Origin: Candidatus Woesearchaeota archaeon
GTDB lineage: Archaea > Nanobdellota > Nanobdellia > Woesearchaeales > ARS49
Direction of reading: 5' to 3'
Assembly (NCBI GenBank): GCA_016203225.1
Contig: JACQNC010000014.1
Location: 1-64,000 of the forward strand
DNA: 64,000 nt
Part shown: piece by piece, positions 2,182 through 28,660 of the stretch
Layout of the letters: each line of letters starts with the position of its first letter
How positions within the stretch are numbered: the first letter of the stretch is position 1
The notes under the pieces: model-generated
Told to the model about the DNA's origin: nothing
What the model saw: the letters and a program-made list of their open reading frames with translations, nothing else
Databases searched by the model: none
Program-made: the position numbers and the translations under genes

Positions 2182-2188
2182 TCCTGCC

Positions 2189-4038: not shown

Positions 4039-4039
4039 A

Positions 4040-5493: not shown

Positions 5494-5514
5494 GCCCTTC
5501 TTGAGGGTTTTTCC

Positions 5515-5772: not shown

Positions 5773-5872
5773 ACTTGCGCGGAAGATAGGAACTGTTGAA
5801 TTATTGTCTGTCACAACTTAGAAATTATTAACTAATGAACTATTTAAATAAACACACTCTATTTTGCTCAAC

Positions 5873-6214: not shown

Positions 6215-6270
6215 ACCTCACCTTCTCGTCCAATCTCGACAAAGCGTCATTCAACTGAGAAGAAAGCTAA

Positions 6271-6867: not shown

Positions 6868-6869
6868 GG

Positions 6870-7307: not shown

Positions 7308-7330
7308 TGTTCGTTCTGCGCCGAGTAGGG

Positions 7331-7340
7331 GTATTTAAAG
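7331..7340 (-). promoter_or_regulatory. TATA box for rps12-rps7
   Basis: CTTTAAATAC on the minus strand, about 24-33 bases before the uS12 ATG, gives a leaderless transcript and shows that rps12-rps7 are uncoupled from the RNAP operon. Confidence 0.65.
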
Positions 7341-7353
7341 GTTGCGTTGGGGC

Positions 7354-7680
7354 TCACGAAGCGCGTGTCCTTCGCCTTACCACAACAGGAGTAGGTTCTG
7401 ATGCAGGCGCAACAGTTTCAGCAGGAGCAGTCACAGGAGCCTCGACAGGCGCCGGCGGCTTTGGCGCAGGAGCGACCGGTTCAATAGTAGCCTCAATAGG
7501 TGCCGGCGGTTCTGGCGTGGCCTCTATCGGAGTCGGCAGCGGTTTGTTCGGCACGATAGTGGGCTCGGGCGCGATGATCTCGGACTTGCTGAGGAATCCG
7601 AACCCGATTATACTACTCGCGACGAGCGCGAACAGCACAAGCGCGATTCCGGTAGTCCATCTCAAGCGTTCAAAACTCAT
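7354..7680 (-). CDS. Single-pass membrane protein with Pro/Ala-rich tail
   Basis: 108 residues. A short N-terminus is followed by one hydrophobic helix (GIALVLFALVASSIIGFGFL), then about 70 residues rich in Pro, Ala, Glu and Thr, ending in a basic cluster (VVVRRRTRAS). The ATG overlaps the stop of the flavocytochrome gene (ATGA), so it is the third gene of the apbE unit. No FMN-binding domain or DGxxT-type flavinylation motif is seen. It could be a wall-spanning linker for its two partners; that is inference. Confidence 0.65.
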   Translation of the reverse strand: MSFERLRWTTGIALVLFALVASSIIGFGFLSKSEIIAPEPTIVPNKPLPTPIEATPEPPAPIEATIEPVAPAPKPPAPVEAPVTAPAETVAPASEPTPVVVRRRTRAS

Positions 7681-8975: not shown

Positions 8976-9805
8976 GCGCTCACCTCGAACCCATTGTACC
9001 TCTTCAGCAGGAGATCGGGGGTGATTATCAACGCCTTGACCTCAGGATGCTCGGCGAGGATCCGCTCCCGCAGCGTCTCATCGACCACAAAGAGCACCGT
9101 CGCGAACGCGTCGGCATCCATCAGCGTCGGCGCCACGACCGTCACTGAACTCACTGGTTGCCGGTTGAGAATGTGGCAATCATCGAATGTCTCATGGTAT
9201 TGGTTGTAATCTCCGGACGTCGCGATGCCCTCATCCTTCACGCGCACGCGACCGACGCTCTTCTTGGGGTCGCGCGGGTGCTGGATGTCGAGCAGTTCCT
9301 CCCCGAAAACGGCGATGTCGCCTCGGCCATCCACGAGCCCTGAGACGGCGCCTCCGTCCTTGAGAACGGCGGCCATCCGGTCGACGATGAAGCCTTTCGC
9401 GATGCTTCCGAGGTCGATCAGCACATCAGGATGCGTCAACGAGACCCTGCTTCCGTTGATCGCAATGTCCTTGTATGAGCATCCGACCCGTGTCACGGGT
9501 TCGTCGCGCTTGCGCTGCAGGAACTGCTTCCCGAGAGAAACGTCATATGCGCCTTCCGTGCGGCGGCATAGCTCGAGCGCCTTGCTCAACACGAGCAGGA
9601 ACTCAGGACTCACGGTGCGCGACCGGTCGCGGTTGAGCAACGACAGCTCGCTCGCAGGGTCGAAGAAGTTGAACATCCGGTGCAACCGCAACGCCTCGCA
9701 GTCGGCATCCTCGACGAGCCCTTCAGCAAGGAGAGGGTCCACGTCTTTCAGGACGATGTCCGCATGCGTGCCGAATAGCCGCTTGCTCACTATATATTCT
9801 TGCAC
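8972..9805 (-). CDS. apbE: FAD:protein FMN transferase (ApbE family)
   Basis: 277 residues. Family marks are GTHADI near the start, FNFFDPASELSLLNRD, DLGSIAKGFIVDRMA, VDGRGDIAVFG and ATSGDYNQYH, then the metal-binding MDADAFATVLFV. ApbE moves FMN from FAD to a Thr or Ser in flavin-carrier proteins. No cleavable signal peptide is obvious. The start is GTG, about 21 bases downstream of an ATTTAAAT box (9826-9833). It heads a three-gene unit with overlapping ends. No gene here carries a clear flavinylation motif, so its substrate must be elsewhere or unusual. Confidence 0.88.
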   Translation of the reverse strand: MQEYIVSKRLFGTHADIVLKDVDPLLAEGLVEDADCEALRLHRMFNFFDPASELSLLNRDRSRTVSPEFLLVLSKALELCRRTEGAYDVSLGKQFLQRKRDEPVTRVGCSYKDIAINGSRVSLTHPDVLIDLGSIAKGFIVDRMAAVLKDGGAVSGLVDGRGDIAVFGEELLDIQHPRDPKKSVGRVRVKDEGIATSGDYNQYHETFDDCHILNRQPVSSVTVVAPTLMDADAFATVLFVVDETLRERILAEHPEVKALIITPDLLLKRYNGFEVSA

Positions 9806-9825
9806 ACACGAACGCCATTTTTTCC

Positions 9826-9833
9826 ATTTAAAT
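9826..9833 (-). promoter_or_regulatory. TATA box for the apbE unit
   Basis: ATTTAAAT lies in the short gap between nusA and apbE, so the electron-transfer cassette has its own promoter although it sits inside the ancestral RNAP-ribosomal gene order. Confidence 0.6.
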
Positions 9834-9854
9834 GCCTTATGGACGTAGCTAGAA

Positions 9855-10268
9855 TCAGGCGACCTTCAATTCCTTTATCGGGAAGTATCGCTTCACCAAA
9901 GTCTCTGTCGCGCGGAGGTTCGAAGCAGACCTGCCGATCAGTATCCCGCGCGTCTGGTGGTCGCCGGCGGTCATCGTGACGACGCCGTCCTCCTCAGAAA
10001 CGTCCATCAGTTCCGCCGGCGCGACGGCGTTCCGGACGAACTGCAGCAATTGATCGGAATAAACGATGTAACGAACCCTCTTCTTCAGGATGTTCTCGAG
10101 CTTCTTCACCACGACTCCGCCCTTGCCTATGCACCTGGCGATGGAACCCTCAGGGATCACGAACGTCACGCGGTCCTCAGAAACGATCACGTCCTTCGGG
10201 ACGACGCCCGAGACCTGCTCGAGCAGGCTCATGAACTTCATCTCATCGATGCCGTAGGTTATCGACAC
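9855..10268 (-). CDS. nusA: Archaeal NusA (KH-domain transcription factor)
   Basis: 137 residues, the short archaeal form made only of two KH domains. The GxxG loop is seen in CIGKGGVVVKKLENIL and a second, IGRSASNLRATETLV, ends the protein. It binds RNA near the polymerase, probably in termination or pausing. It follows eL30 by six bases at the end of the RNAP operon, its usual place. Confidence 0.92.
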   Translation of the reverse strand: MSITYGIDEMKFMSLLEQVSGVVPKDVIVSEDRVTFVIPEGSIARCIGKGGVVVKKLENILKKRVRYIVYSDQLLQFVRNAVAPAELMDVSEEDGVVTMTAGDHQTRGILIGRSASNLRATETLVKRYFPIKELKVA

Positions 10269-10274
10269 AGAAAA

Positions 10275-10553
10275 CTACTCCTTCGCCACGCTCAGCACGC
10301 TGATGCCGAACGGTCGCCGACAAAGGGCGCCGAACTCGTCAGACGTCAACTGCGCGTGGACCACATCCACGCCACCGAGTCTCGCGTAGCGCTCGACGTC
10401 GGCGTGCGTCTCCTGGGAGACGTTCTTGGAAAGGAACACCTTCTTGGCACTGCCGTTCTTGAGATGCTTCATTGTCCGGTCAGTGCCGACCACGAGCTTG
10501 CCCGCATCGAGCAGCTTCTTTATCTCGCCGCTTTCATCACTTGGTTTCGCCAT
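10275..10553 (-). CDS. rpl30e: Large ribosomal subunit protein eL30
   Basis: 92 residues, eL30/eL8/eS12 fold. The segments [20 protein letters not shown] and [12 protein letters not shown] are typical of the family. It lies between A'' and NusA as in most archaea, and its start overlaps the end of rpoA2 by 17 bases. Confidence 0.92.
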
Positions 10554-11697
10554 GTTCGAGTTTCTCCTTGTCTATCTTGGCCACGAGGCCAGGCAGTCCG
10601 GTTCCGATCGGCACGGGCTGGTTCAGCATCACGTTCTCCACGACCGAGTTCAGCTCATCGCTCTCGCCTACGAGCGCGGCCTCGATGATGTGCAGGATCG
10701 GCGTCTCGAATGACGCGCGCGCGAGCACCGAGGACTTCTCGCTGATGACTCCATAGCGCGTCACTCCCTTCACCGTGCCTGACACGGTCATCGTGTCGAC
10801 GACGAGCATCAGGTGGCGGATGTCGACATCGATACCCTGCGCCTCGAAGACGCGGATGACCTCGTTCAGCGCGGCCTGGCGCGCGGCCTCGATACCCAAG
10901 ACCTCAGAGATCTCCTGAACGTCGTTCGTCGTGGTGCGCATCGCGTCCACGAAGTCCAGTTCCAGGACCTTCTTCATGTTGCTTCCTGCCGTGATGATGA
11001 TGAACTCCTCATGCCTGCGCACGGGCAGTACCTGAGCGATGCCCTTTATGCCGGAGATGTATATCTTGCGCACGTTCTCCTTGAGCTTGTACAGCTCGTT
11101 GAGCCCCTTGTCCTCGCCGCCCTTGAGCTTCAGCACGAGGTCCGAGCCCTCTCCCTTGACGGTCGCGCCCTTGATGCCCTTCTCGAGGCTCTTGACGACT
11201 GTCGCGGTCGTGATGCTGAGCTGTTTCATGCGCTCGGTGTCGAGCTTGACATCGATCTTCAGGTCCACGACGTTGAGGTTGAATTCAGTTACCAGCTCGC
11301 CGAAAGTGGTCTCCTTCAGCGCGAGAGCGATCTCCTTGATGTCCTTGCCCTTGTTGTACGGCGCCTTGAGGAAGATCTCCATCATGGGAGTCTTGATCTC
11401 CTTGCGGCCGTCGAGTATCTCCACGACGCGAGGCAGGCCCATCGTGACGTTCATCTCGGCGGCGCCCGCGAAGTGGAACGTGTTCAACGTCATCTGCGTG
11501 GACGGCTCGCCGATCGATTCGGCGGCGACGACCCCCACGCTCTCGCCGGAATCGACCTTGACAGCGAGATACTCTTCATAGAGCCGCTTGGCGGCCTTCT
11601 TCAGCTTGCCCGCAGGGCATTTCTCCTCCAATTCCTGAAGCATCTTGCCCGGAAGCTTGCCGTCATAGTCCTCGAGGTCTTTGTGCATTGGGATCAC
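10537..11697 (-). CDS. rpoA2: DNA-directed RNA polymerase subunit A''
   Basis: 386 residues, the C-terminal third of the largest subunit. The trigger-loop and bridge region is present ([19 protein letters not shown], then [18 protein letters not shown]). The start is GTG, overlapping the A' stop as GTGA; an ATG lies three codons in. A' and A'' join without a gap in the complex. Position and length are normal. Confidence 0.96.
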
Positions 11698-14468
11698 TCT
11701 GTCGTGTCGATGATGCGCTGGATGTTGATCTTGCCGTTCTCGCTGCGCGAGACGTCGACGCTGTCCTCGCCGTACTTGAACTGGATGATCTTGCCCGTGG
11801 CATCGCGGACGGTGCCATCGTACTCGACGCGCAGGTCCTGCATGGCGTTCGCAAGGCGACGGTAGAGGTAGCCCGACTTCGGCGTACGCAACGCAGTGTC
11901 CATCAGGCTGTCGCGCCCGGTGATGTTGCAGAAGAAGAACTCCTGCGGTGAAAGCCCCTTCTTGAGGTTGCTGCGCACGAACCCGTGCGCCAAAGGCGAG
12001 ATGTCGCCTTTCTTGAAGCAGCTCAACGTGCGGCCGCGGTAGCCCTTCTCGATGCGCTTGCCGCGCAAGGCCTGCTGGCCGACGATGGCCGAGATCTGCG
12101 AGAGCTGCAGGATGTTGCCGCGCGCGCCGGAATCGACCATGATACGCGTGTCGGTATCCTTCTTCGCGTGCTCCTTGACTAGCTGTCCGGCCTTGTTACG
12201 CGCCTTGTTCAGCAATTCCAGGATCTTGAACTCAAGCGTCTCGCCCACGCTGCGTCCGGGGAAAGCCTCGAGCTTGCCCTCGTGGAACTGTTGGATGAGC
12301 GTCTGGATCTCGTTCTCGGCCTCGACGATAGCCTGCTCGATCTGCTCCTGCGCGATGCTCGGCAGGTCGAAGTCGCTGATGACTATGCTGAAGCCGGTCA
12401 TCTGCAGGTACTCGTTGCCGAGCGTGAAGACCTTGTAAAGGATGTCGATCGTCGTCTGGGAGCCGTACTGGCGGTGCAACGCCCGCAGCAGGAAACCCGA
12501 GCCCTCGCCAAGAGACTTCTCGTCGATGACTCCTTCGACGAGCTTGCCGTCCTTGATGACGATCTTCGCGCCAGACCTGCTTTCGCCCTCGAAGTTGAAA
12601 TCGTCAGGCATCATGACGCTGAAGATCTCGCGACCGTTGACCGTCTTCTTGTTGGGCAGCTTGCCGACGTCGGTGACGCCCGCGCGGATAAGCAACTGGA
12701 TCGCGTCTTCACGGGACAATTCAGCGAACTTCGTCAGGGCGTACGAGCCCGAGAGCGAGTCCTGGAGGCAGCCGATGACCGGCAGACCATAACGCGGCGA
12801 AATCAATTGCGTCTGCACCTGCATGAGGATCTCCGCCTCTGCGCGCGATTCCTCCGTCTGCGGCACGTGCAGGTTCATCTCGTCGCCGTCGAAGTCAGCG
12901 TTGTACGGCGCGCACACGGTCGGGTTCAGGCGCAGCGTGCGCCCTGGCAGGACCTTTACCTTGTGGCACATCGTGCTCATCCTGTGTAGGCAAGGCTGTC
13001 TGTTGAAGATGGTGATGTCGCCGTCCATCAGGTGGCGTTCGACGACGTAGCCGGGCTGCAATTCCTCAAGCGCGGCCTCCTTAGTCTCCTCCGTGATCTT
13101 CTTCTTCTTGCCGTCTGGACGGACGACGTAGTTCGCGCCCGGATACGTGCCCGGTCCGCGCTCGACGAACTTCTTGAGGTAAGCCATGTTCCACGGCTGC
13201 ACGACCTCGGGCACCGTGACCTTCATCGCGATGACCTTGGGAACGCCGACCTCATTGACCTTGATGAACGGATCAGGACTGATGACCGTTCGCGCGCAGA
13301 AGTTCGTCCTCTTTCCTGCGAGGTTGTGACGGATACGGCCTTCCTTGCTCTTGATGCGCTCGGTGAGCGTCTTCAACGGCTGTCCCGAGCGGTGACGCGC
13401 CGGCGGAAGCTGCGCGACGTCGTTGTCGAAGAACGTGGTCACGTGGTACTGCAATAGGTCCCAAAGGTCCTCTATGATGATCTCTGGCGCGCCCGCGTTG
13501 ATGTTCTCGAACAGGCGCTGGTTGATTCGCACGATGTCCCCGAGCTTGTGCGTGAGGTCGTCCTCAGACCTCTCTCCTGTTTCGAGCGTGATGCTCGGAC
13601 GCATCGTCACCGGAGGCACGGGCAGCACGGTCAGGATCAGCCATTCAGGACGCACTGTCGCGGGATTGATGCCGAATATCATGGCGTCCTCGTCAGGGAT
13701 CTTCTCCAGGCGCGCGCGGACCTCTATCGGGCTCAATCTGCGCTCGCCTTCCATGTACGTGGTAGGCTTCTCGAGCGAGATCTTTGACTGTTTCGCGTTG
13801 CAGTGGGAACACTTGTTGCCCGCCTTCAAGGAATCGATGATTGTCTTGATGGCCTTGCGGCGCGCGCGGAGGCCGCCTTCGATCTCGATCTTCTCGAGGA
13901 TGCTCTTGCTCTTCTCGAGCTTCTCCTTCGGGATGAGGATCTTGCCGCACTCGTGGCATGTGCTGCGCAGCAGCGAGAGGATGACCGGGACGAACTTGAT
14001 GTGCACGACAGGACGCGCCATCTCGATGTAGCCGAAGTGGCCGATGCACTCCTTCAACTTGCATCCGCACGTCTTGCAGCGCAGGCCTGGGTCGATGACG
14101 CCCAACCTGATGTCCATAAGGCCGCCGTCGACAGGATAGCCCTCCTTGTCGTACAGTTCAGGGGTCACGACCTTGGCCGAGGCCATCTTCTTGAGCAGCT
14201 TAGGACTTAGAACGCCGAACACGATGTTGCTCACCTGCTTGAATATGTATTGCGGAGTCGCCATCACCGACTCGCGCTTCGCGCTCGGAGCTTCGCCCGC
14301 AGCCTCCGCGGCAGGTGCGCCCGCGGACGGCGCTGCGGATTCCTCAGGAGTCATGCCCGCGCCGACGTCGCCGGACTTGAGCAGGACTTCCTCTTCCTCA
14401 GGAGCGGCTTCTGGCGCCATCTCCTTCAGCTCCTTCTTCGTCTCCTCGCTTGCTTTGGCTTTTGGCAT
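11694..14468 (-). CDS. rpoA1: DNA-directed RNA polymerase subunit A'
   Basis: 924 residues from the ATG at 14468. The clamp zinc site is [20 protein letters not shown] and a second Cys set lies in [10 protein letters not shown]. The catalytic magnesium loop [15 protein letters not shown] is intact. Normal A' begins near the segment IVFGVLSP; here about 68 extra residues rich in Glu, Ala and Lys precede an internal ATG at 14264. The upstream ATG is favoured because it lies two bases after the B' stop, but neither start has a strong ribosome site. See findings. Confidence 0.95.
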
Positions 14469-19546: not shown

Positions 19547-19650
19547 ATCACGCTTGGGACTACGGAATGCTCATCACGCGGGGAGCATCCAGTGAGAAGC
19601 AAACGGCCAGCAGTAAGTTTTAAAAGCAGCCGACAGAAAGATGTTCCTGT

Positions 19651-19779
19651 CCCCGCGTAGCTCAATGGTGGAGCGTCCGGCTGTAGACGAGAGTCACTCA
19701 CCGACGAAGGCACATCGCCACGGATGAACGTGAGCCAGCAGAACCCGGAAGGCTGGCGGTTCAAATCCGCCCGCGGGGA
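19651..19779 (+). tRNA. tRNA-Tyr (anticodon GUA) with intron
   Basis: The halves pair as a cloverleaf: acceptor CCCCGCG/CGCGGGG plus A, D-arm GCTCAATGGTGGAGC, anticodon stem TCCGG/CCGGA around GTA (19683-19685), T-arm GGCGG-TTCAAAT-CCGCC. An insert of about 57 bases (19687-19743) follows position 37, the standard archaeal intron site. The exact bulge-helix-bulge was not verified. TATA box TTTTAAAA at about 19619-19626. The 3' end is the attachment site of the adjacent element. Confidence 0.88.
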
Positions 19780-19781
19780 TT
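19768..19781 (+). other. attL: attachment core in tRNA-Tyr 3' end
   Basis: CGCCCGCGGGGATT covers the last 12 bases of the tRNA gene and two beyond. The same 14 bases recur at 28132-28145. The integrase gene starts 80 bases inside, so this is the integrase-proximal end of an integrated element. Confidence 0.85.
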
Positions 19782-19861
19782 ATACATTTGGTTAGTTCCC
19801 CACCACAATCAATATATAGATGGCGCTCCCTCGGGAGAATGAAAAGGTGGTGGGGGTTTTC

Positions 19862-21133
19862 ATGCCAATCATTGATTACGGCCAGCACGCCGTTCAAGCC
19901 GAACAACGATTCTTCGCGAGCAAAGAGATCTCTCAGAAGAACAAAGCCGCAATGACGCGGTACATTGCGCAGTACGATGTGAGGCCCGCAACGCGTTTGA
20001 AATTCTTTAACCACATCAGGTTCCTTCTCGAAATGTTGAGTGATGTCGAGCGTCAGATGCACGACCGCGAGCTCGTCAACAAGACATTTGCTCACTTTCG
20101 CAAGTCATTGAAGCCGGGCTATTATGCAACGCTTGTCAACGTCTCAAAGGCGTTCGTGCGCTGGCTGAACGATGGCGACTTGCCGAAAGGCTTCAAAGAC
20201 GTCAAGGGCGTGGGCAAGAAGGATCAACGGCGTGACCTCGCGCCTGAGGACATGTGGACGTGGGACGACGCGAAGCAGTTCTGCAAGTTCGTACCGAGCA
20301 TCCAAATTCAAGCAGCGCTTGCCACGCAACTTGATGCAGGATTGCGACCGAGCGAGTTTGTGGATTTGAATTATGGCGACGTAACGATCAAGAGGGACGT
20401 CGTGATCTTCCAAGTTCGCGAGGGTAAGACGGGTAGTCGTCCTGTGCCTTGCGCGCGATGCCCGCCGTTCTTTCTCAAGTGGTACCATGCGCACCCAACC
20501 AGGAAGGCAAACGATCCTTTATGGGTGATGGAGTTTAACGGCAAGAGCCATCCTGGAGAGCCGTCTCGCAAGGAGTTCACGATTCGTAGGTACGAATACA
20601 CTGCGCTTTTGAAGCGTTTCCGCACAATCGCGCTCAAAGCAGGCATTAGGAAATCGGTGGACTTCTATACACTCAGGCATTCAAGCTGCACGCTGGACAA
20701 GCTCGAAAACGTTCCTCTTGAAGTCGCCGCGACAAGGCACGGCCACACGGTCAAGTACTTCACCGAAGTCTATGCGCGCCTTGATCTGGATGGTATTGCG
20801 AACAGGCTCCGCCAACACTACGCGGGTAGCGAGCAGAAGCTGGACGTTCCCAAGAATCGTGTGTGCGAACGGTGCGAGATGGTCAACGAGCCAGCGTCAC
20901 AATCTTGCTTCAAATGCGGTTTGCCGTTCAGCGTTGCCGAGATCTTAGGGTTGGAGAAGCAACGTGATGACGATGTTGCCGAGTTGCGCAAACGCACCGA
21001 GCTTCTCGCAGGTCTTCAGAAGGAGATGGTCGAGATGCGTGACTTGCTCGGAGCGCTGACGAAAGGCAAGTTCGAAGACTCAGGGAAGCTGGATGAGCAA
21101 CGATTCGTCGTTGCGAAAGTTAAAGGTAAGTAA
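19862..21133 (+). CDS. Tyrosine recombinase / integrase with zinc ribbon and coiled-coil tail
   Basis: 423 residues from the ATG at 19862. The ATG at 19820 touches the TATA box (AATATATAGA, 19811-19820), whereas GGTGGTGGGGG precedes 19862. A SAM-like N-terminal domain is followed by a catalytic domain with Arg in DAGLRPSE, Lys in REGKTGSRPV, YTLRHSS where the usual His of HxLR is Tyr, then RHGH and a nucleophile Tyr in TEVYARLD. The C-terminus adds a zinc ribbon (CERCEMVN...CFKCG) and a coiled coil. It should integrate the element at tRNA-Tyr. Confidence 0.9.
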   Translation: MPIIDYGQHAVQAEQRFFASKEISQKNKAAMTRYIAQYDVRPATRLKFFNHIRFLLEMLSDVERQMHDRELVNKTFAHFRKSLKPGYYATLVNVSKAFVRWLNDGDLPKGFKDVKGVGKKDQRRDLAPEDMWTWDDAKQFCKFVPSIQIQAALATQLDAGLRPSEFVDLNYGDVTIKRDVVIFQVREGKTGSRPVPCARCPPFFLKWYHAHPTRKANDPLWVMEFNGKSHPGEPSRKEFTIRRYEYTALLKRFRTIALKAGIRKSVDFYTLRHSSCTLDKLENVPLEVAATRHGHTVKYFTEVYARLDLDGIANRLRQHYAGSEQKLDVPKNRVCERCEMVNEPASQSCFKCGLPFSVAEILGLEKQRDDDVAELRKRTELLAGLQKEMVEMRDLLGALTKGKFEDSGKLDEQRFVVAKVKGK

Positions 21134-21153
21134 ACCGCGAAAGGAGGACGAAC

Positions 21154-21447
21154 ATGACAGGAACAACCGAGCAGCATAGCGTATACAATTGGAAAACGAT
21201 GCCTGATGGGGTAACGCAAATCCGTCGTGACTCTGGAAGCCGTATCGAAGCAAGAAGGTGGAACATTGAACTGGTGAGGGATGTTTCTGCGTTGACCGGA
21301 CGCGAGCTCCCGTATGCTCCACTGAGCATGGAAGAAGTCATTGATCTCTGCGAGGATGGTATAAAGTTCCGAATGCTTGCGCAGGCAAAAGCAATCGAGA
21401 AACAAATACAGAACCAACTTACAGCAGTTGCAGCAACCCCGGCCTAA
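21154..21447 (+). CDS. Small element-encoded protein after the integrase
   Basis: 97 residues starting MTGTTEQHSVYNWKTMPDGV, with AAAGGAGGAC as a strong ribosome site 21 bases after the integrase stop, so both are on one transcript. The C-terminal half is helical (MEEVIDLCEDGIKFRMLAQA). It might be an excision or regulatory factor by position only. Its end overlaps the convergent 21419 gene by 29 bases. Confidence 0.7.
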   Translation: MTGTTEQHSVYNWKTMPDGVTQIRRDSGSRIEARRWNIELVRDVSALTGRELPYAPLSMEEVIDLCEDGIKFRMLAQAKAIEKQIQNQLTAVAATPA

Positions 21448-21709
21448 CCTCGATAATAGCCCCCATTCGTGCCAGCTTCAGCAAACTCTCCGCAACAACC
21501 CGCTCAGTCATTCCCCTTGCGGCGCACGCATCCAGCACGGCTTTCAACGGCACGCGGCACAAGCTTTTGATTTCGCTCAAGACCTGTTCATCCGGTGTTT
21601 GGTCGGCTCCGAAGTTCGGATCGACCTTTCTCACAACGTCTCGCAGCGTCTGCGGTTTGTTAACCGCAATCTTGTTGAGGTCGAATGTATCGCCTGGATG
21701 TGGTGTCAT
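21419..21709 (-). CDS. Winged-helix-like small protein
   Basis: 96 residues from the ATG at 21709, set by GGGGGAG six bases upstream and by ATGA overlap with the 44-residue gene before it. The middle (DEQVLSEIKSLCRVPLKAV and ERVVAESLLKLARMGAIIEV, then RPGLLQLL) has the helix-helix-wing pattern of a small winged helix, ending in strands. It is probably DNA-binding; family unassigned. Confidence 0.65.
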   Translation of the reverse strand: MTPHPGDTFDLNKIAVNKPQTLRDVVRKVDPNFGADQTPDEQVLSEIKSLCRVPLKAVLDACAARGMTERVVAESLLKLARMGAIIEVRPGLLQLL

Positions 21710-21840
21710 GTGAACTCCCCCTTCGTCCATTCTGCGTTCGCAAGTTTGAACGCATCGCTTTGGCGGAGTTCATAAACGGTCTTGCCTTTGCGAAGCACGG
21801 CTGCTCGCCTGCACACGTAGCTCACTCGTTCGTTCGTCAT
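21706..21840 (-). CDS. Small basic protein, 44 aa
   Basis: ATG at 21840, stop overlapping the next start (ATGA). The sequence begins MTNERVSYVCRRAAVLRKGK and the message has GCGGGGGTG upstream as ribosome site. A weak TATA-like AAACTTAAG lies near 21870-21880. Function unknown; coupling to the winged-helix gene suggests a shared role. Confidence 0.55.
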   Translation of the reverse strand: MTNERVSYVCRRAAVLRKGKTVYELRQSDAFKLANAEWTKGEFT

Positions 21841-22024
21841 AATGCACCCCCGCACGTTAGTAGAATCGGTCAAACTCTTAAGTTTATTGTCTTACATTGC
21901 GCACAGTCGCGATTTAAGAAGAGCGACGAATTTGCGACGATTAAGGCTCAATACCGCGTTCTTTGAAGGCTGCAAATGTAATACCTTTCAGAATCGCGCA
22001 GACGCGTTCGACCATCGCTGTATT
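21841..22024. other. Intergenic region with three related short repeats
   Basis: No ORF is supported. It holds three near-copies of one motif: GTCGCGATTTAAG (21906-21918), GCGACGAATTT (21923-21933) and GCGACGATTAAG (21934-21945). In an element of this kind they could be iterons or regulator sites. The stretch is also more AT-rich than its surroundings. Confidence 0.35.
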
Positions 22025-22651
22025 TCATTGGGGTTTGGTTGATTCGTTCAGCAATTCCAGGAATTTGAGTTTGTCCATGCGCAAACGTATGGTGTGTTGC
22101 ACATTCGTCGCGTACCAATAGTCTCCTGTGAAGAACAACGCGATCCTGTCCTTCCAAGATGTCACGTTCGCAAGTTCGCCAGGAGCAATGCTTGTTTGCT
22201 TGCTCATTTCCTCGCGCAACTGGTCCCCATCAAAGTACGACATTGCAGGCGTTTCCTTCTCGCAAGCATTGCACACGCTCAAGAACCATCCCGCATCCGC
22301 GATGATTCCTTCAGAGCATGGTGGAATGTCCTCGACCTCGCACGTCTCCATTAAGCTGGCGAACGCGCCGTCCATCCAACTCGTGCCCCGCAACCACAGG
22401 TTCGCTTTGCGGCTCTTCCAGTGCGTGCTCCCGTCCCGGTGCTTGCTGAGATGCAAGTCAAGTCCGCCGAGCCGTTTCTGCACGCCAGGAAGGGGTACTT
22501 CATACGTGTCACCTTTGCGAGCAGTCACGGTCTTGTTGATGATCGCGAACTTGGCATTCAGCTTGAGGTAGTGTAACCTTTCCATGATGCAGTCACGTTC
22601 GAGTTGAGAAGTCGCATCGAGAGGCTTGTTGGTCTCTTCGACCGGCTCCAC
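22025..22651 (-). CDS. Element-encoded hypothetical protein, 208 aa
   Basis: 208 residues from a GTG at 22651; an ATG at 22585 (MERLHYLKLN) is an alternative start. Mixed alpha/beta, with VCNACEKE near 150 as one Cys pair and a C-terminal basic helix (TIRLRMDKLKFLELLNE). The text SWKDRIALFFTGDYWYATNV near 175 is a hydrophobic core. No family recognised. It follows the 40-residue zinc finger by 31 bases. Confidence 0.65.
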   Translation of the reverse strand: MEPVEETNKPLDATSQLERDCIMERLHYLKLNAKFAIINKTVTARKGDTYEVPLPGVQKRLGGLDLHLSKHRDGSTHWKSRKANLWLRGTSWMDGAFASLMETCEVEDIPPCSEGIIADAGWFLSVCNACEKETPAMSYFDGDQLREEMSKQTSIAPGELANVTSWKDRIALFFTGDYWYATNVQHTIRLRMDKLKFLELLNESTKPQ

Positions 22652-22682
22652 CTCTCAGCATGACCAGAGCGCGAGAATCGCT

Positions 22683-22805
22683 TTAAGAATGTTGCGCACG
22701 AAACTCGTATGCATGCTTGCACGCGCCCAGGTGCGCGAGCCAAAGCGGGTCAAACTTTCTGAAACGCACCTTCTCGCAAAACGGACAAACGCTCGGCAGA
22801 CTCAC
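22683..22805 (-). CDS. Mini CCHC zinc-finger protein, 40 aa
   Basis: GTG at 22805 to TAA at 22683. The product MSLPSVCPFCEKVRFRKFDP continues to LWLAHLGACKHAY: Cys7, Cys10, His25 and Cys29 form a C2HC finger with almost nothing else. It follows a TATA-like ATTTATTTATT and the terminator of the main operon. The same Cys-Cys-His-Cys layout starts the 22927 gene product, which supports the call despite a weak ribosome site. Confidence 0.55.
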   Translation of the reverse strand: MSLPSVCPFCEKVRFRKFDPLWLAHLGACKHAYEFRAQHS

Positions 22806-22844
22806 GAAGCAATCAGCAGACGCCTTGAATAAATAAATCTATCC

Positions 22845-22898
22845 GAAAGAAAAGAAAAGGGGGCGGGGAGTGCGAAACGCCGATTCCGCACTCCCCGC
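22845..22898 (-). terminator. Hairpin plus T-tract terminator of the element operon
   Basis: GCGGGGAGTGCG (22863-22874) pairs perfectly with CGCACTCCCCGC (22887-22898), a 12-bp stem with a 12-base loop. On the minus strand it is followed by CCCCCTTTTCTTTTCTTTC, so it ends the operon that runs from 27601 to 22927. Confidence 0.75.
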
Positions 22899-22926
22899 TT
22901 TCCCCCAAGCATCAAAGGAGAGAGTG

Positions 22927-23196
22927 TCAGTCGCGAGGCTGTTCTTTCTTGCAAATCAGTTCCTTCAACTTCGTGTTCTCGCCATAAATCGGCACGACCT
23001 TACTCGGTCTCGAAATGCTGATACGGCCGTTCGCTTGCCGCTCAATGGTGGCGTCTTCACTGCCACCTTGCTCGACCAACAAACCCCTCGGTCCTGCGCT
23101 TTCTTCACCAATGTTTTGCACGCAGAGCTTGGCGTGAGCTTGGTATTCTTTCGGCGTGCGTGTTAGCACGTTCTTCATACATATTGGGCACTTCAT
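22927..23196 (-). CDS. CCHC zinc-finger protein, last gene of the element operon
   Basis: 89 residues; MKCPICMKNV and YQAHAKLC place Cys3, Cys6, His and Cys (H-x3-C) as a C2HC finger, as in the 22683 product. The rest is polar, ending in helical KLKELICKKE. GGAGGACC lies just before the ATG, which overlaps the preceding stop. It probably binds nucleic acid or protein; target unknown. Confidence 0.7.
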   Translation of the reverse strand: MKCPICMKNVLTRTPKEYQAHAKLCVQNIGEESAGPRGLLVEQGGSEDATIERQANGRISISRPSKVVPIYGENTKLKELICKKEQPRD

Positions 23197-23837
23197 TTTG
23201 GTCCTCCAGCCTCTTTGAGAAGGCTTAAGATTTTGTTATCTGGTTCATCGTTGCGGCTCACGAGCAAAGTCTTGCCCGCAAGCGTTGAGTAACGATAGAA
23301 CGTGAACGTTTTGGTGTGACCTTTTGGGTACATGCACTCCTTGTGGGCGCACGAGAACAAGAGTTCGACAAGTTCTTTCTTGACAGCGTACTGCGTGATG
23401 AGTCCCTGCGCGTCAACCTCGTGCAGTTTCACAACTCCTAATTCTTCAATGCCGGCAGCCGTACTCGTGACACGAACGCTCGTGCGCACGTATTTCATGG
23501 AGAACTTGTTGCGGTCTTCGTGCTTGATTCCCGCCCAGGGTGTGTCTTTCTTCTCTCGATCGTGAAGGGAAAGCTTGCAGCATTGTTCACAGACCGGTTG
23601 AGCTTTGCCTGCAAAGATTAGTTGTGCGGCCTTCTCGTCCTCTTCAAGCCATTGAGCGATCGTTTGGTTTGCCAGTCTGAGCTTTTCGCCATCAACGCTC
23701 TTGCGACTTCCGTTTGTCTCGCCAGGGCTCGGTAGTTGTGGAACGAACCGGTATTCCCAATCGAGACCTCGCAAGCCTTTCGTAGGATCGACTAGTACGG
23801 GCTCCGGTTTTGGCTTGCGCGCAAACAGGGGCGTCAC
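23193..23837 (-). CDS. Element-encoded Cys-containing hypothetical protein, 214 aa
   Basis: 214 residues from a GTG at 23837 that overlaps the upstream stop as GTGA; longer in-frame extensions lie inside the preceding gene. One Cys cluster, VCEQCCKLSLHD near 90, and a later SCAHKECMYPKGH look like a split zinc site. Strands dominate the middle (YVRTSVRVTST, VVKLHEVDAQG). No family recognised. Confidence 0.65.
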   Translation of the reverse strand: MTPLFARKPKPEPVLVDPTKGLRGLDWEYRFVPQLPSPGETNGSRKSVDGEKLRLANQTIAQWLEEDEKAAQLIFAGKAQPVCEQCCKLSLHDREKKDTPWAGIKHEDRNKFSMKYVRTSVRVTSTAAGIEELGVVKLHEVDAQGLITQYAVKKELVELLFSCAHKECMYPKGHTKTFTFYRYSTLAGKTLLVSRNDEPDNKILSLLKEAGGPK

Positions 23838-24313
23838 GTGTTCACTCCGAACGCTTTTTGAATGTCTTGTGCGGAAGCCGTCTTGCGCGCGGTTTCGATA
23901 GCAATGCGGCCTTTGCACGCCTTGCACGCCCATTCGTGGTGTGTGACGATAAACCATTGGTTTGCGAACCGTTCTGGGCTTGAACTGTGCAAGCCAAGAT
24001 CATCAAACGCTTGCTCGGCAAAAAGTTCCCACGCACGTTCAGCATCGTTCACGAGCACGGGCTCTTCGTTCGGGTGAAGGAAGAAGTGTCGTGCTTGCTC
24101 GCGCTGCCACCACGCATCAAAACACCCAACACAAACCGGCTTCCCGTTTCTTCTGCCCCATTCTCGCAAGCTTTCCCTGTTGGTCTGCAATGCCTGCATG
24201 ATGGGCTCTTGCTTTGCGGCGCTTGCCTTATTCTCAGGTAGTTCTTCGTGCAGCGCAATCCCGACCCTTTCGCCGTCAGGATTGTACGTGCGGGTTTGTG
24301 CAGTTTGCTTCAT
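23834..24313 (-). CDS. Element-encoded protein with two CxxC pairs, 159 aa
   Basis: 159 residues. CVGC near 61 and CKAC near 132 are spaced so that one zinc site could join both halves; WFIVTHHEWACKACKGRIAI looks like a treble-clef or HNH-like start, but no complete HNH motif is present. Acidic helix NDAERAWELFAEQAFDDLG lies between. The gene is packed between overlapping neighbours in the operon. Confidence 0.6.
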   Translation of the reverse strand: MKQTAQTRTYNPDGERVGIALHEELPENKASAAKQEPIMQALQTNRESLREWGRRNGKPVCVGCFDAWWQREQARHFFLHPNEEPVLVNDAERAWELFAEQAFDDLGLHSSSPERFANQWFIVTHHEWACKACKGRIAIETARKTASAQDIQKAFGVNT

Positions 24314-24717
24314 TGGTAGAAGAGCACGATGTTTCCCGTGCCGCCAAAAGTCCCGCTTGAAGTGAGCCGGATCGCGTCTCCGTCAACGAATGGGTGAATA
24401 AGCGCACTGGTTGCCGTGCCGGAGACAGACGCACCCTCTACTTGTCTGAACACGCTCGTGTCATAGAACGCTCTGCTTTGCCCAATACCTTTGATGAGCG
24501 TCACTTGACGATTCTGATTCCAAGTGCTCCCGCTCGCGATGACGTACAAGGACCCCGTACTTGCCGAGAATGCTGGCGATCCTACCTCCATACCAATAAT
24601 TCTGCCCGTCACGCTCTCCGCACTAAAACTCGTCACGGCATTACCACTCGCGGCAATAGACGCATTCGGCACGAGAGTAAACCGGATGCTCTTGAAACTG
24701 TTCCCGAACTCAGTCAT
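24310..24717 (-). CDS. Beta-rich protein, candidate structural component, 135 aa
   Basis: 135 residues from the ATG at 24717, with GGAGGCG six bases upstream. It is rich in Ser, Thr, Gly and Ala with alternating strands (SIRFTLVPNASI, TGSLYVIASGST, DAIRLTSSGTFG) and ends in NIVLFYQ. It has no cysteine, unlike most neighbours, and no signal peptide. The pattern resembles small jelly-roll or virion proteins, but that is only compositional inference. Confidence 0.6.
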   Translation of the reverse strand: MTEFGNSFKSIRFTLVPNASIAASGNAVTSFSAESVTGRIIGMEVGSPAFSASTGSLYVIASGSTWNQNRQVTLIKGIGQSRAFYDTSVFRQVEGASVSGTATSALIHPFVDGDAIRLTSSGTFGGTGNIVLFYQ

Positions 24718-24839
24718 TCTTTTCGCCTCCACTCTGTCTTTCGACGCCCACAAACGCACTCGTACTCAACTTCGTCCTCAACCTGTCGCGCCACGACACG
24801 CACCTCACTCATCGGCTTGCCACAAAAGCACAAAGTCAT
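24714..24839 (-). CDS. Small zinc-ribbon protein, 41 aa
   Basis: ATG at 24839, TGA overlapping the next ATG. The product starts MTLCFCGKPMSEVRVVAR and later has YECVCGRRK: two CxCG knuckles about 25 residues apart, a complete minimal zinc ribbon. Its start overlaps the stop of the 24836 gene, so translation is coupled on both sides. Confidence 0.65.
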   Translation of the reverse strand: MTLCFCGKPMSEVRVVARQVEDEVEYECVCGRRKTEWRRKE

Positions 24840-25246
24840 ACCCAACCCTCCAACGAGTGCAGCCGGACAACAAGCTTCTGCACTTGATCTTCCGTGATGC
24901 CAGCCACGAGACTGACCCCTTTCTCTCCTGCAAAGAACTTTTGGAGCACGCTCAAGTCCAGCTTCATCGTGCTCTGAGGAACGCTACGATACAACACCAT
25001 GATTGCGGAATCGAAAGGTTTCCTGAACACTTCCAAAAACCTCAAGGTCTCGTTCAAGAACGCGACAAGAGCCGCACCGTCACGCGTTCGAACGTCCTCC
25101 AAGCGTTTACTGCACGCGTTCTCCACCTTCCAGGATTCCCAACGCTCCCACTCATTGGTGCGAGCTTCCCGCTCCGCGATCTGTTCCTGACGCCAGACCT
25201 CGTGCTCCTCAACACTCATCATTTGCGGACTTAGCGACGCACTCAC
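24836..25246 (-). CDS. Element-encoded helical protein, 136 aa
   Basis: 136 residues, mostly helical. The N-terminal half is strongly charged (EEHEVWRQEQIAEREARTNE), a likely coiled coil. The C-terminal half (LSVLQKFFAGEKGVSLVAGI, EDQVQKLVVRLHSLEGW) looks like a small helical bundle. It overlaps neighbours by four bases on each side. Unknown function. Confidence 0.6.
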   Translation of the reverse strand: MSASLSPQMMSVEEHEVWRQEQIAEREARTNEWERWESWKVENACSKRLEDVRTRDGAALVAFLNETLRFLEVFRKPFDSAIMVLYRSVPQSTMKLDLSVLQKFFAGEKGVSLVAGITEDQVQKLVVRLHSLEGWV

Positions 25247-25548
25247 TTTTCACCACCAAGAATGTCACGAATCATGCTCCGAGTTTCTTCTGAAACGCTT
25301 GGATTCGTGGCAACCTTCAACAACGCCTCACGACGCGTCACGTTCGCAAGCGTGCTGTTCAAGAGCACGCCGTAATTGTAGAACAACTTGCACGAGTTCT
25401 CAGTTCCGTTCAGTCCAGCCATACGAGAAACGGTCGCGCGCACCAACCAGCTCAAGACTCGGTCAGCATCCAGCTTGTCTGGAACCGCATCCTCAAGGCC
25501 CAAGCGCCTCAGCATCGCGTCAACCTCGCTCTGCCGAACAACGCTCAT
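25243..25548 (-). CDS. Element-encoded helical protein, 101 aa
   Basis: 101 residues from the ATG at 25548, with GGAGTGG upstream; a GTG at 25557 is also possible. Begins MSVVRQSEVDAMLRRLGLED and is helical throughout; VLSWLVRATVSRMAGL is amphipathic. It follows the ATPase gene by about 43 bases. Could be a partner of the ATPase by position only. Confidence 0.6.
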   Translation of the reverse strand: MSVVRQSEVDAMLRRLGLEDAVPDKLDADRVLSWLVRATVSRMAGLNGTENSCKLFYNYGVLLNSTLANVTRREALLKVATNPSVSEETRSMIRDILGGEK

Positions 25549-25591
25549 CGTGACCACTCCAAAGGTTGTTTTCTAAAACCACAGGGGGGAA

Positions 25592-27148
25592 TCATCGTAC
25601 CACCTTCAGAAAACCCGCTCGTGATTCCATCACGTCGCCTTTTTGCGTGGCGGTGGTGATGAATTGTTCTCCGAGTAGTTCTGCGGCTTGTTGGGCGTCG
25701 ATTTCGTCGTGTTGTGCCCAGCCTGTGAGTGCGAGTAGTTGTTGTTCGTAATTTATTGGATTGGTACCTGAACTAACTGAACTACTTGAACTGAGAGAAC
25801 CTTTTGAACTAACTGAACTGGCTTCGATTTGTGGCTCTGAATTATCGGTCGTAGGCACGATTTTCTGGTTCAGTTGGTTCAGTTGGTTCAGTTCTCCTGT
25901 GGAAATTTGGCTCGCAAAAGGTAACTGAACTGACTGGCAGTCCGTTCGTGTACGCCACACTTGGAGGTCTTTGCGCTTCTCCTGGGGCAAGATTCTTGTT
26001 TCCAGGATTCCTTGCTCGGTCAGGCGATCCAAGACCTTGTAGAGGCCGCGTTCGCTGTATGGCACGCCTTCTTCCAAGAGTTCGGGCACGCTTTTGTAGT
26101 TCAGATTGTTCAGGTTGTTCAGGACGCTTGTTTGTTTGTGTGTCGGAATAAAGCCGGAAGGGGTTGTGATTTTGGCAATGCATGCCCGCACCAGGTCCCA
26201 GTCTTTCCATTCCGCGATGACGTTTCCATCTGCGTCTCGTTCGCGCTGGAATTGATGCAAGCTCGCCGAAAACTTGACGAAATCGATGATTCGGCCAATA
26301 TGCGTGCGGAAGGGTATTGCGTCGTACTTCACGAACGCTTCTCCAAGCTTTTCGGCGAAGGGTACGAGGACGTTGACGCGCTGCAATGCCGCAACCACTT
26401 TTCGATAATACGCGGAAGGTGCCGCTTTTTGTGAAGCGCTGGCAGCATGCGCGACGAAACGCACGACTTGTTGCGTCTTTTCCGGGCTTTCGTCGAGGTG
26501 AATGATGGGGAACCTGCGCAGGAGTTCGACACCTGGTTCGGCTTCTGCTGTCGTGATGATGATTCCAGGCTTGCCGGGAATGATAATGTCGATGGCGCGC
26601 TGTTCTTTCACGATTGTGGCGCGGCTTCCGCCTGAACTCATGGTTTTGAACACGTCGGAATCGAGCAAGGAGCGTGAGCAGTCTTCTGCCACAATGACTT
26701 TGCCATCCCATCTGAATCCGTCGTCGCGTGCCTCTTTTTGCTTCCAATACGTGAATGCCTGCGGCGTGATTTTCGTCCGGTGAAACAAATCACTTTCCTG
26801 CGTGAAGAATGGATCGACGCAGGCGCGAACGTGCACATCCTTACCCGCGCCTGATTTTGAGTTCACGCACAAGTTCGTGCTTGTTGCAGACGCGTTGATG
26901 CAGAGTTTGCTGCCGAACGCGACGAGCAGGATGGTCTTGACCGCATCAATGTCTGGCACGATGTTCTTTGCGGGTACTTCGCAGAGTTTGTCGAATAGCA
27001 AAGGGTTCCGCAGCAGTGTTTCGGGACCGTCGAGAATGATACGTGCAATGTCCGGGTCCACGATCTGTGCGGCAAATTTTGGCGGCCCAAGCGCTTGCAT
27101 CGTGACTTGCAAGGTCTGGGTTTCAGCGCGACGTTCGCGGGGAGTCAT
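25592..27148 (-). CDS. Helicase-like P-loop ATPase with winged helix (replication candidate)
   Basis: 518 residues. The Walker A segment is NSKSGAGKDVHVRAC, with Asp where Ser or Thr is usual; Walker B is KVIVAEDCS. GKPGIIITTAEAEP and ELLRRFPIIHLDES fit sensor 1 and an arginine-finger region, as in MCM-like or superfamily 3 helicases. Residues about 360-400 (VPYSERGLYKVLDRLTEQGI) form a winged helix; the tail is Ser/Gln-rich. Likely the replication protein of the element. It overlaps the 27145 gene by four bases. Confidence 0.65.
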   Translation of the reverse strand: MTPRERRAETQTLQVTMQALGPPKFAAQIVDPDIARIILDGPETLLRNPLLFDKLCEVPAKNIVPDIDAVKTILLVAFGSKLCINASATSTNLCVNSKSGAGKDVHVRACVDPFFTQESDLFHRTKITPQAFTYWKQKEARDDGFRWDGKVIVAEDCSRSLLDSDVFKTMSSGGSRATIVKEQRAIDIIIPGKPGIIITTAEAEPGVELLRRFPIIHLDESPEKTQQVVRFVAHAASASQKAAPSAYYRKVVAALQRVNVLVPFAEKLGEAFVKYDAIPFRTHIGRIIDFVKFSASLHQFQRERDADGNVIAEWKDWDLVRACIAKITTPSGFIPTHKQTSVLNNLNNLNYKSVPELLEEGVPYSERGLYKVLDRLTEQGILETRILPQEKRKDLQVWRTRTDCQSVQLPFASQISTGELNQLNQLNQKIVPTTDNSEPQIEASSVSSKGSLSSSSSVSSGTNPINYEQQLLALTGWAQHDEIDAQQAAELLGEQFITTATQKGDVMESRAGFLKVVR

Positions 27149-27477
27149 TGTTTGCGCAGGCCCCCCATAACCTCGACACCGCGTGACTTTATGCGATCCG
27201 CGATGATCCGCTTCGCGCCCTCGTCGTCGTTGCGCGCGATCGCGGCGGAAAGCTCTCGTTCTTCTGCGGACATGCGGTTTCTGAGACGGAGCGCTTCCCG
27301 AAGTTCTTCGGCAGCGCTCGGAGCCATATCAAAGATCGAGTTTGCGACGGGCACAGAGACCACGCGATTGTCCCGCAGAATGATGCGGTAAATGATTCCC
27401 TCGCGGGAAACCTCGCCCTCAAACGTTTTACACTCGCCCGTTGGCAGATACGTCCGGACTCGTCCTTTGGCTTGCAT
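27145..27477 (-). CDS. Element-encoded protein with beta domain and helical tail, 110 aa
   Basis: 110 residues from the ATG at 27477. An N-terminal beta unit (VRTYLPTGECKTFEGEVSRE, IIYRIILRDNRVVSVPVAN) is followed by two charged helices (AEELREALRLRNRMSAEERE, DDEGAKRIIADRIKSR). The start overlaps the end of the ribbon-helix-helix gene by 50 bases, which is long, so the true start may be internal. Function unknown. Confidence 0.55.
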   Translation of the reverse strand: MQAKGRVRTYLPTGECKTFEGEVSREGIIYRIILRDNRVVSVPVANSIFDMAPSAAEELREALRLRNRMSAEERELSAAIARNDDEGAKRIIADRIKSRGVEVMGGLRKQ

Positions 27478-27601
27478 GCAGTTCACCGTTTTTGTTAAGA
27501 AGATTCTGGATTGTCTCGTCAAAAGTTGCTCGGGGATGCGATTTAATCTTCCTGAGTTCTTCTCGGGTCTTGGGCGCGACCTTGACCGTGACGAGTTCCA
27601 T
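27428..27601 (-). CDS. Ribbon-helix-helix-like regulator, 57 aa
   Basis: 57 residues from the ATG at 27601: MELVTVKVAPKTREELRKIK then SHPRATFDETIQNLLNKN. This is the strand-helix-helix pattern of archaeal VapB/RHH-type proteins. It is the first gene of the ten-gene minus-strand operon and probably represses it. The TATA box at 27621-27630 leaves about 20 bases to the ATG. Confidence 0.65.
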   Translation of the reverse strand: MELVTVKVAPKTREELRKIKSHPRATFDETIQNLLNKNGELHASQRTSPDVSANGRV

Positions 27602-27620
27602 ATTTCTCTCACGGGGGAAT

Positions 27621-27630
27621 CTATTTAAAG
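27621..27630. promoter_or_regulatory. Shared palindromic TATA box for divergent genes
   Basis: CTATTTAAAG reads as CTTTAAATAG on the other strand. On the plus strand it is about 26 bases (box centre) before the GTG at 27652, on the minus strand about 24 before the ATG at 27601. One box could serve both leaderless transcripts. Confidence 0.6.
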
Positions 27631-27651
27631 AGCAAGTCCGTCGGATCCTCC

Positions 27652-28101
27652 GTGGCACGGGTTTTACAACGAAACAGCAATTCTTGGATGGCTACGATAC
27701 CGAAACCAGACATTCGCGAGCTTGGCTGGCAGAAGAACGCATGCCTTGTCGTGAAGGAAATTTTGCCGGGAATTTTCGAGATCATCAGCGCCGGCGGCTC
27801 TTGCCAACAAACGAGAATTCTCGACGAGAACGAGCGCCGGCGGCTATATGATATCGAGCACGCAACGGTCTCGCCAAACTTCGACAAGAATGAGCGCGCA
27901 TTTGTGTTGGCGGGCAGCCATGCCGCGTTCTGCTGGAAGGGGAGCCTGCTGCATTCAAGCAATGGAGCGTATCGCGTGCCATTTCCGACGGATTTCCCGG
28001 ATGCGATCGGTAGTATGTTCACGGTCGAGCCGAGCGGCAGTGGACTGATCCTTGACTTCCGGCAGCCGTGCACAACGGGGTCTCAGCGCCCCAGTGCCTA
28101 A
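27652..28101 (+). CDS. AbrB-like regulator, 149 aa
   Basis: 149 residues from a leaderless GTG. The N-terminus RNSNSWMATIPKPDIRELGW followed by QKNACLVVKEI matches the swapped-hairpin AbrB/SpoVT pattern. The rest (RAFVLAGSHAAFCWKGSLLH) is a second beta region without clear match. It is divergent from the element operon and shares its TATA box with it, so it is likely the control gene of the element. It ends 30 bases before attR. Confidence 0.5.
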   Translation: MARVLQRNSNSWMATIPKPDIRELGWQKNACLVVKEILPGIFEIISAGGSCQQTRILDENERRRLYDIEHATVSPNFDKNERAFVLAGSHAAFCWKGSLLHSSNGAYRVPFPTDFPDAIGSMFTVEPSGSGLILDFRQPCTTGSQRPSA

Positions 28102-28131
28102 CTTTAAGGGAACGGACCAAAACGCCTAGTG

Positions 28132-28145
28132 CGCCCGCGGGGATT
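28132..28145 (+). other. attR: distal attachment core
   Basis: CGCCCGCGGGGATT repeats the tRNA-Tyr 3' end exactly (19768-19781). It is followed by a T run and is not part of a full tRNA gene, as expected for the distal end of an integrated element. Confidence 0.8.
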
Positions 28146-28193: not shown

Positions 28194-28214
28194 GCAGAAT
28201 CCATAAATAGCGAT

Positions 28215-28433
28215 ATGGAATACCGTCTTTCAGCGGTCATCTCAAAGGAAGCGAAGTTCTTCGTAGCCCGCGGTGTCGAGATCGAGCTCGCGAGCCAGGG
28301 CAAGACGGTCGAGGAAGCGTTGAAGAACCTCAAGGAAGCGTTCGAGCTGTGGATCAAGCACGCGGATGCCGACGAGCTTGACGTGTTCAAGGACGCGAGT
28401 TCTCCCATCGTGACGCAAGTCGTCGCCGCATGA
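28215..28433 (+). CDS. hicB: HicB-family antitoxin
   Basis: 72 residues: MEYRLSAVISKEAKFFVARG, then VEIELASQGKTVEEALKNLK, the short HicB_like strand-strand-helix fold where the usual GC(h)SQGDT is read as ELASQGKT. It should bind HicA and repress the operon. Its stop overlaps the hicA start (ATGA). It lies 70 bases outside attR of the element. Confidence 0.85.
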   Translation: MEYRLSAVISKEAKFFVARGVEIELASQGKTVEEALKNLKEAFELWIKHADADELDVFKDASSPIVTQVVAA

Positions 28434-28660
28434 AATTGCCGGTCCTTTCCGGCAGGGAAGTCGTCAAACTGCTCTGCAACAAATTCGGCTTCAAGGTACT
28501 CGACCAGACTGGAAGCCACGTCATCCTCTTCGGCGAACGCGACGGCGTCAAGCGCAAGCCGGTCGTCCCGCAGCATCCTGAGCTTGCTAAAGGCACCCTG
28601 CTGAGCATCCTGAAGCAGGCAGGCTTGACGCGCGACGACTTGGAAAACGCGTTAAAGTGA
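28430..28660 (+). CDS. hicA: HicA-family mRNA interferase toxin
   Basis: 76 residues with a dsRBD-like fold. The catalytic histidine lies in DQTGSHVILFG; LSGREVVKLLCNKFGFKVL and VVPQHPELAKGTLLSILKQA are family motifs. HicA cuts mRNA independently of ribosomes when HicB is lost. Complete and apparently intact, translationally coupled to hicB. Confidence 0.9.
   Translation: MKLPVLSGREVVKLLCNKFGFKVLDQTGSHVILFGERDGVKRKPVVPQHPELAKGTLLSILKQAGLTRDDLENALK

Follow-up and report, generated by a model that had tools for sequence, protein, structure and literature searches.

Little has so far been described of the mobile elements found in DPANN archaea. Among the closest described systems are the cryptic integrated elements (CIE) of Thaumarchaeota, which were characterised in a survey and some of which carry an MCM gene (PMC6563490). 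Integrases of the pNOB8 type bear an R...YxxR...Y signature, and attachment site (att) cores as short as 8-13 bp are on record (PMC8371274). As for replication, mobile elements use proteins in which a primase is joined to an AAA+ ATPase, of the MCM-like or another type (PMC5862659). The locus considered here lies in a 64,000-nucleotide stretch of DNA from a DPANN archaeon of the Candidatus Woesearchaeota (GCA_016203225.1, contig JACQNC010000014.1, positions 1 to 64,000), called the window hereafter, on contig 7 of the 15 contigs forming this 1,000,058-base genome. At positions 19768-28145, it holds an 8.4-kb element integrated, with near certainty, at a tRNA-Tyr gene, and which is quite probably a cryptic integrative, presumably replicative, plasmid-like element. 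It represents a new lineage within the known CIE kind and not a categorically new one, because its MCM-like helicase is common to other tRNA-integrated elements as well as to head-tail and other virus contigs.

Borders, integrase and target site

The integration target, a tRNA-Tyr(gta) gene with a 57-nt intron (19650..19780, plus strand), stays intact; it is found by ARAGORN with introns allowed (and missed without that option) as well as by Rfam RF00005 at 57.2 bits. Its 3' end holds attL (19768..19781, plus strand), a 14-bp direct repeat CGCCCGCGGGGATT consisting of the last 13 bases of the tRNA gene and one more, the second copy of which, attR, is located at 28132..28145 on the same strand, i.e. 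at a distance of 8,364 bp. Over the whole genome, this 14-mer occurs exactly twice, in identical copies of the same orientation, one per border. When 400 stretches of 12 kb with matched dinucleotide make-up were simulated, without requiring the repeat to end at the tRNA end, a tRNA-tail repeat of at least 14 bases arose in a single one, the longest being usually of 8-11 bases. Besides, the composition of the element is foreign, with a G+C content of 53.4%, essentially the window minimum among 8.4-kb stretches, for which the mean is 57.7% (sd 1.8).

Adjacent to attL, a tyrosine recombinase of the classical type is encoded at 19862..21133 on the plus strand (Phage_integrase 4e-9, PHROG integrase 4e-16), with a YxxR motif and a C-terminal CxxC..CxxC zinc-ribbon. 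The open reading frame (ORF), 19820-21133, is intact, with 437 codons from the first start or 423 from the ATG at 19862, the start common to its relatives, and the residues R176, Y283, R286 (in YTLR) and Y318 are invariant when the protein is aligned with its three closest relatives. The gene is whole after integration, with the att sites outside it, and displays the R...YxxR...Y signature, as in classical (type II, pNOB8-like) integrases; the arrangement of the suicidal SSV-type integrases, where att lies within the integrase gene and integration splits it, is not found in this gene.

In G411 (L052), the sole same-genus genome compared, the neighbourhood of tRNA-Lys, MsrA, tRNA-Asp and tRNA-Tyr is kept and the element is absent: the chromosomal segment starting about 2.5 kb right of attR in the window lies about 1.2 kb from the G411 tRNA-Tyr, i.e. 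this gene and the distal right flank are separated by ~1.2 kb there vs. ~10.9 kb in the window. Because a hicBA-lemA-htpX block is missing from G411 as well, this empty site is syntenic, not base-exact, and the junction is not visible. In the window, that block follows just past attR, with a HicB/HicA toxin-antitoxin pair at 28214-28660 (HicA 1.1e-14), then LemA-like and HtpX-like genes. Both the coordinates and the integration asserted in the original prediction, together with the origin of the repeat in the tRNA-Tyr 3' end, are upheld by the repeat pair, unique genome-wide, and by the absence of the element at the syntenic tRNA-Tyr of G411.

Regarding the sister genus, the tRNA-Tyr 3' end and its flank (at least 30 bp) are repeated ~2.8 kb downstream in L055 (G410:C104, reversed), an interval that encloses, among other genes, a nucleotidyltransferase/HEPN-like pair, and only ~0.1 kb downstream in L057 (G370:C44, reversed); the two spacings point to an insertion or deletion at the same tRNA-Tyr.

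The closest relative of the integrase (54% identical) is encoded in a genome of the same family, G100 (L027), also beside tRNA-Tyr, and a 12-bp copy of the tRNA end is present there 9.65 kb away, past an opposing operon; taken by itself, a repeat of 12 bp is weak evidence (about 2% of the window simulations reach at least this length), but its position and the layout agree. This comparison bears directly on the explanation by a chance repeat around ordinary chromosomal genes, which the length of only 14 bp could suggest: the pair is unique in the genome, ends at the tRNA end and adjoins an integrase, the same integrase subfamily stands at the same tRNA in G100, and four other elements (see below) share the layout. 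Already contradicted by this comparative evidence, a chance origin is hardly credible.

The MCM-like helicase and its relatives

The largest minus-strand gene (25592..27148) specifies a 518-amino-acid (aa) ATPase with Walker A (SGAGKD) and Walker B (VIVAED) motifs, the core of which is followed by a winged-helix-like region. No Pfam, NCBIfam or PHROG family matches this protein at a meaningful level, nor does the single sequence match phages, plasmids or IMG/VR, but an alignment of the helicase did match IMG/VR contigs. Its relatives are found in genomes of Pacearchaeota, Micrarchaeota, Diapherotrites/Iainarchaeum, Aenigmatarchaeota and Thermoplasmatota, in one contig binned as Ignavibacterium, in IMG/VR contigs and, more distantly, once more within the same family. 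Over the 16 rows of the alignment, the P-loop GK, the acidic Walker B, a threonine in the sensor-1 region and the arginine R212 are kept. Among the members, Pfam domains comprise MCM in two (best 9.5e-7), Prim-Pol in one (2e-9) and a CHC2 zinc finger in two (8e-10).

From these 16 sequences, AlphaFold modelled the helicase core with a pLDDT of 86.3 and a pTM of 0.79 (with 5 sequences, the pLDDT was only 41). All 50 of the 50 Foldseek matches listed against the PDB are MCM or MCM-containing complexes (best E 2e-10, query TM ~0.5-0.57), and the fold matches among viral models include several DUF3987 and primase-polymerase proteins as well as ORF A460 of SSVK1 (Q6TDM5), which ranks third (E 4e-15, TM 0.68, 14% identity). 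The AAA+ core is thus most like MCM, and the identification of the ATPase as a divergent MCM-like AAA+ helicase is well supported by profiles and the predicted fold; it is named MCM-like and not MCM because the canonical N-terminal domain is absent. A functional reading in replication would follow from the description of such proteins in mobile elements (PMC5862659).

At four further loci, a related helicase gene is bracketed by repeats derived from a tRNA 3' end. Three of them encode a tyrosine recombinase, namely the G416 element in the same family (tRNA-Arg, 29-bp repeat, ~6.0 kb), the L062 element in Micrarchaeota (tRNA-Asp, 15-bp repeat, ~8.7 kb) and the L033 element (G203:C6) in the same class (~60-12874, 17-bp repeat, ~12.8 kb), the cargo of which includes two DNA methyltransferases, a large restriction-type helicase and a Cas4-like protein; the fourth, L069 in Thermoplasmata (tRNA-Arg, 20-bp repeat, ~10.2 kb), contains serine-recombinase-like genes by eye. 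Relatives of the helicase are also found near virus genes, i.e. in the L063 contig with a terminase and in L077 with terminase- and portal-like genes (by eye). The family therefore occurs in virus-like as well as plasmid-like elements. A minimal design combining a tRNA repeat, a recombinase and an MCM-like helicase within 6-13 kb thus recurs in at least three archaeal phyla and is shared with virus replication modules.

The G100 element makes a clear case of another kind: it has its tRNA-Tyr site and its integrase subfamily in common with the window element, but not the replication module. Its replication protein is a D5_N/DUF5906 primase-helicase, and the integrase is the only protein detectably shared by the two elements. 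Since the integrase is conserved and the replication module differs, modules have been swapped.

Along with an MCM-like helicase, the virus-like DPANN contigs L030 and L078 have in common an ATPase of 299-341 aa and numerous small membrane proteins, and possibly represent a membrane-coated or filamentous DPANN virus group. In many relatives, a small gene of 68-89 aa, SH3/Lsm-like by eye, stands just upstream of the helicase (L063 1401-1610, L066 4388-4606, L069 7450-7665, L070 2091-2309, L031 10263-10490, L033 11643-11849 and L078 8075-8344) and is likely a replication partner. In the window, the gene immediately upstream of the helicase (27145..27477, minus strand; 110 aa, or 155 aa from a far start) is positioned like these small genes, but a profile test of its membership in the SH3-like family was negative.

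Gene content and nature of the element

Altogether, the element consists of the intact integrase and a compact, mostly minus-strand set of tightly packed genes, in line with the full integrase and compact operon first proposed. For most of the 17 plausible ORFs, the called frame scores best by codon usage, as scored for each ORF frame after training on the flanking genes, the doubtful ones being the smallest or mis-started (g6, 22683-22805; g11, 24714-24845; g16, 27428-27601). Many products are small and exhibit CxxC motifs.

Downstream of the integrase gene, an ORF of 97 aa supported by codon score (21154..21447, plus strand) is followed on the minus strand by one of 103 aa, winged-helix-like by eye only with a sub-threshold DUF5817_CT match (21419..21730; 0.025), one of 55 aa called by codon score (21706..21873) and one of up to 208 aa with a CxxC motif, which has the top codon score among the cargo and no relative (22025..22651). 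A terminator-like hairpin of 16 pairs with a T-rich tail (22863..22898, minus strand) would close the main minus-strand run; it is the longest stem in the region, the count of such sites being not above that in shuffles. Within this run, ORFs of 89 aa with an N-terminal CPIC zinc-finger-like motif (22927..23196; codon score), of 214 aa, or 254 aa from an upstream start, with cysteine motifs and a 4-bp overlap with the preceding gene (23193..23837), and of 159 aa with two CxxC motifs, a supporting codon score and no relative (23834..24313) are succeeded by one of 135 aa (24310..24717), a doubtful one of 43 aa with CxC..CxC and a low codon score (24714..24845), one of 136 aa with codon support and no convincing relative (24836..25246) and one of 104 aa, also by codon score (25243..25557), all on the minus strand. 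Towards attR, a minus-strand ORF of ~57 aa (27428..27601), ribbon-helix-helix-like by eye and without family match, is a putative operon regulator, and a divergent plus-strand ORF of 137 aa adjoining attR (27688..28101) is supported by codon score, with no family match above threshold. The 135-aa product is Ser/Thr/Gly-rich and beta-rich by eye, with no membrane span.

Relatives were scarce throughout. In 140-281 genomes of the order or class, none was convincing for the 254/214-, 208-, 159-, 136- and 135-aa proteins, and the 214/254-aa protein had none in 233 other class genomes, viral contigs or phages; single-sequence scans of IMG/VR returned no match for the 135-, 208- and 254-aa proteins, and PADLOC recognised no defence gene among the six window cargo proteins tested. 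Of the claim that only the integrase, the ATPase and two regulators resemble known families, the integrase part stands by Pfam, NCBIfam and PHROGs; the ATPase could be placed only with profiles and structure, and the regulators are without a family match. Likewise, the absence of any known virus or plasmid backbone holds at the level of single sequences (phages, plasmids and IMG/VR, with five cargo proteins lacking convincing relatives) but not for the MCM-like replication backbone, which is shared with other elements and virus contigs.

Family scans with Pfam, PHROGs and NCBIfam revealed no terminase, portal, capsid, relaxase, VirB4-like or casposase family among the element products, though the unrecognised proteins could hide one. 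The terminase, portal and major capsid protein of a head-tail provirus were accordingly not seen in these scans, and no product shows a clear membrane span (no 19-residue Kyte-Doolittle mean >1.52), as the membrane-spanning coat or spike proteins of pleomorphic, spindle or filamentous archaeal viruses would. Together, these results speak against self-transfer by conjugation and against a complete virus of the head-tail, pleomorphic or spindle-shaped type. Alternatively, the element could be the satellite of a virus, or itself a tail-less virus of very small size, replicated by the helicase and enclosed in a particle that one or more of the unrecognised proteins, above all the 135-aa beta-rich one, would coat or decorate, perhaps with a helper virus. 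This would agree with the occurrence of the helicase family in virus-like contigs, among them L063 and L077 with their terminase or portal-like genes. The G100 tRNA-Tyr element also carries a 451-aa tape-measure-like protein by eye (L027 9388-10743), with no other recognised virion genes, but the call has no profile support. For the 135-aa protein, the one weak match (E 0.008) falls in the C-terminal portion of a secreted L101 protein (same class) of 342 aa that contains repeats, and phages, IMG/VR and PDB gave none. With no terminase, portal or capsid recognised either, this explanation is unlikely. The more specific proposition of a particle former, either a tiny virus without a tail or the satellite of a head-tail virus of DPANN archaea, which would combine a virus-type MCM-like replication module with unseen coat families such as the 135-aa product, is quite improbable.

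For the plasmid-like element favoured here, the following life cycle can be proposed. The classical integrase would recombine a 14-bp core common to the element circle and the tRNA-Tyr 3' end; because this core coincides with the tRNA end, integration leaves the tRNA gene complete and the integrase gene, beside attL, intact, so that an 8,364-bp circle could still be excised. The mostly minus-strand operon, starting near attR, would provide the MCM-like AAA+ helicase with its winged-helix-like region, which most likely opens the origin of the circle and recruits the host primase and polymerase, and small DNA-binding proteins would act as regulators. We infer excision, replication of the circle, helicase activity and the regulator roles, as well as mobility, replication and transfer of the element as a whole.

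Several observations weigh against this reading. No free circle and no second copy of the element are known; the reality of the cargo genes is not corroborated by relatives of their products; the canonical N-terminal MCM domain (OB fold, zinc) is absent, only ~45 residues preceding the core; the helicase sits on a long branch and the family tree does not resolve its place; and G411 has other genes in place of the hicBA-lemA-htpX block right of attR. The single copy without known free form would also suit a genomic island that has been domesticated or is decaying and, after a single integration, can no longer leave, as would the lack of the element in near relatives, which gives no sign of recent movement of exactly this element. 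Yet almost every frame, including those of the integrase and the helicase, is open, the genes are closely spaced and no difference has arisen between the two att copies, which makes such an island improbable. If the plasmid-like element does excise, elements of this type would offer a natural basis for building small vectors for lineages without genetic tools.

Comparison with known systems

The integrase resembles the classical (pNOB8-type) archaeal integrases by its gene intact after integration, its R...YxxR...Y motif and an att core in the tRNA 3' end; it differs from those of Sulfolobales pNOB8, the att core of which spans 40-50 bp (PMC8371274) vs. 14 bp here, and adds a C-terminal zinc-ribbon extension, its activity being predicted from sequence. 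The G100 tRNA-Tyr element shares the site, the integrase gene beside the tRNA and the opposing operon, and differs by its D5/DUF5906 primase-helicase.

The window protein has its AAA+ core and winged helix in common with the AAA+ helicases, MCM-like or not, that mobile elements encode, including the SCCmec Cch cited in the same source, and some of its relatives carry Prim-Pol or CHC2 primase domains in fusion, as in the primase fusions described there; unlike in these systems, no Pfam family covers it and no primase is recognised in the element (PMC5862659). The likeness to the Sulfolobus spindle-shaped virus SSVK1 is restricted to the fold of A460, the element having no recognised fusellovirus gene or membrane protein.

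Compared with the CIE of Thaumarchaeota (PMC6563490), the element belongs to another host lineage, its divergent MCM-like helicase lacks the canonical N-terminal domain and its cargo is unrelated as far as testable. The new family of archaeal mobile element put forward in the original prediction is consequently retained in the narrow sense of a new lineage, the kind itself being already known. Like the CIE, it combines an integrase of its own, flanking direct repeats, a small size and mostly unexplained genes with the absence of virion, conjugation and casposase genes; it is missing from the same site in G411, and the resemblance extends to the MCM or other replication protein that some CIE possess (PMC6563490).

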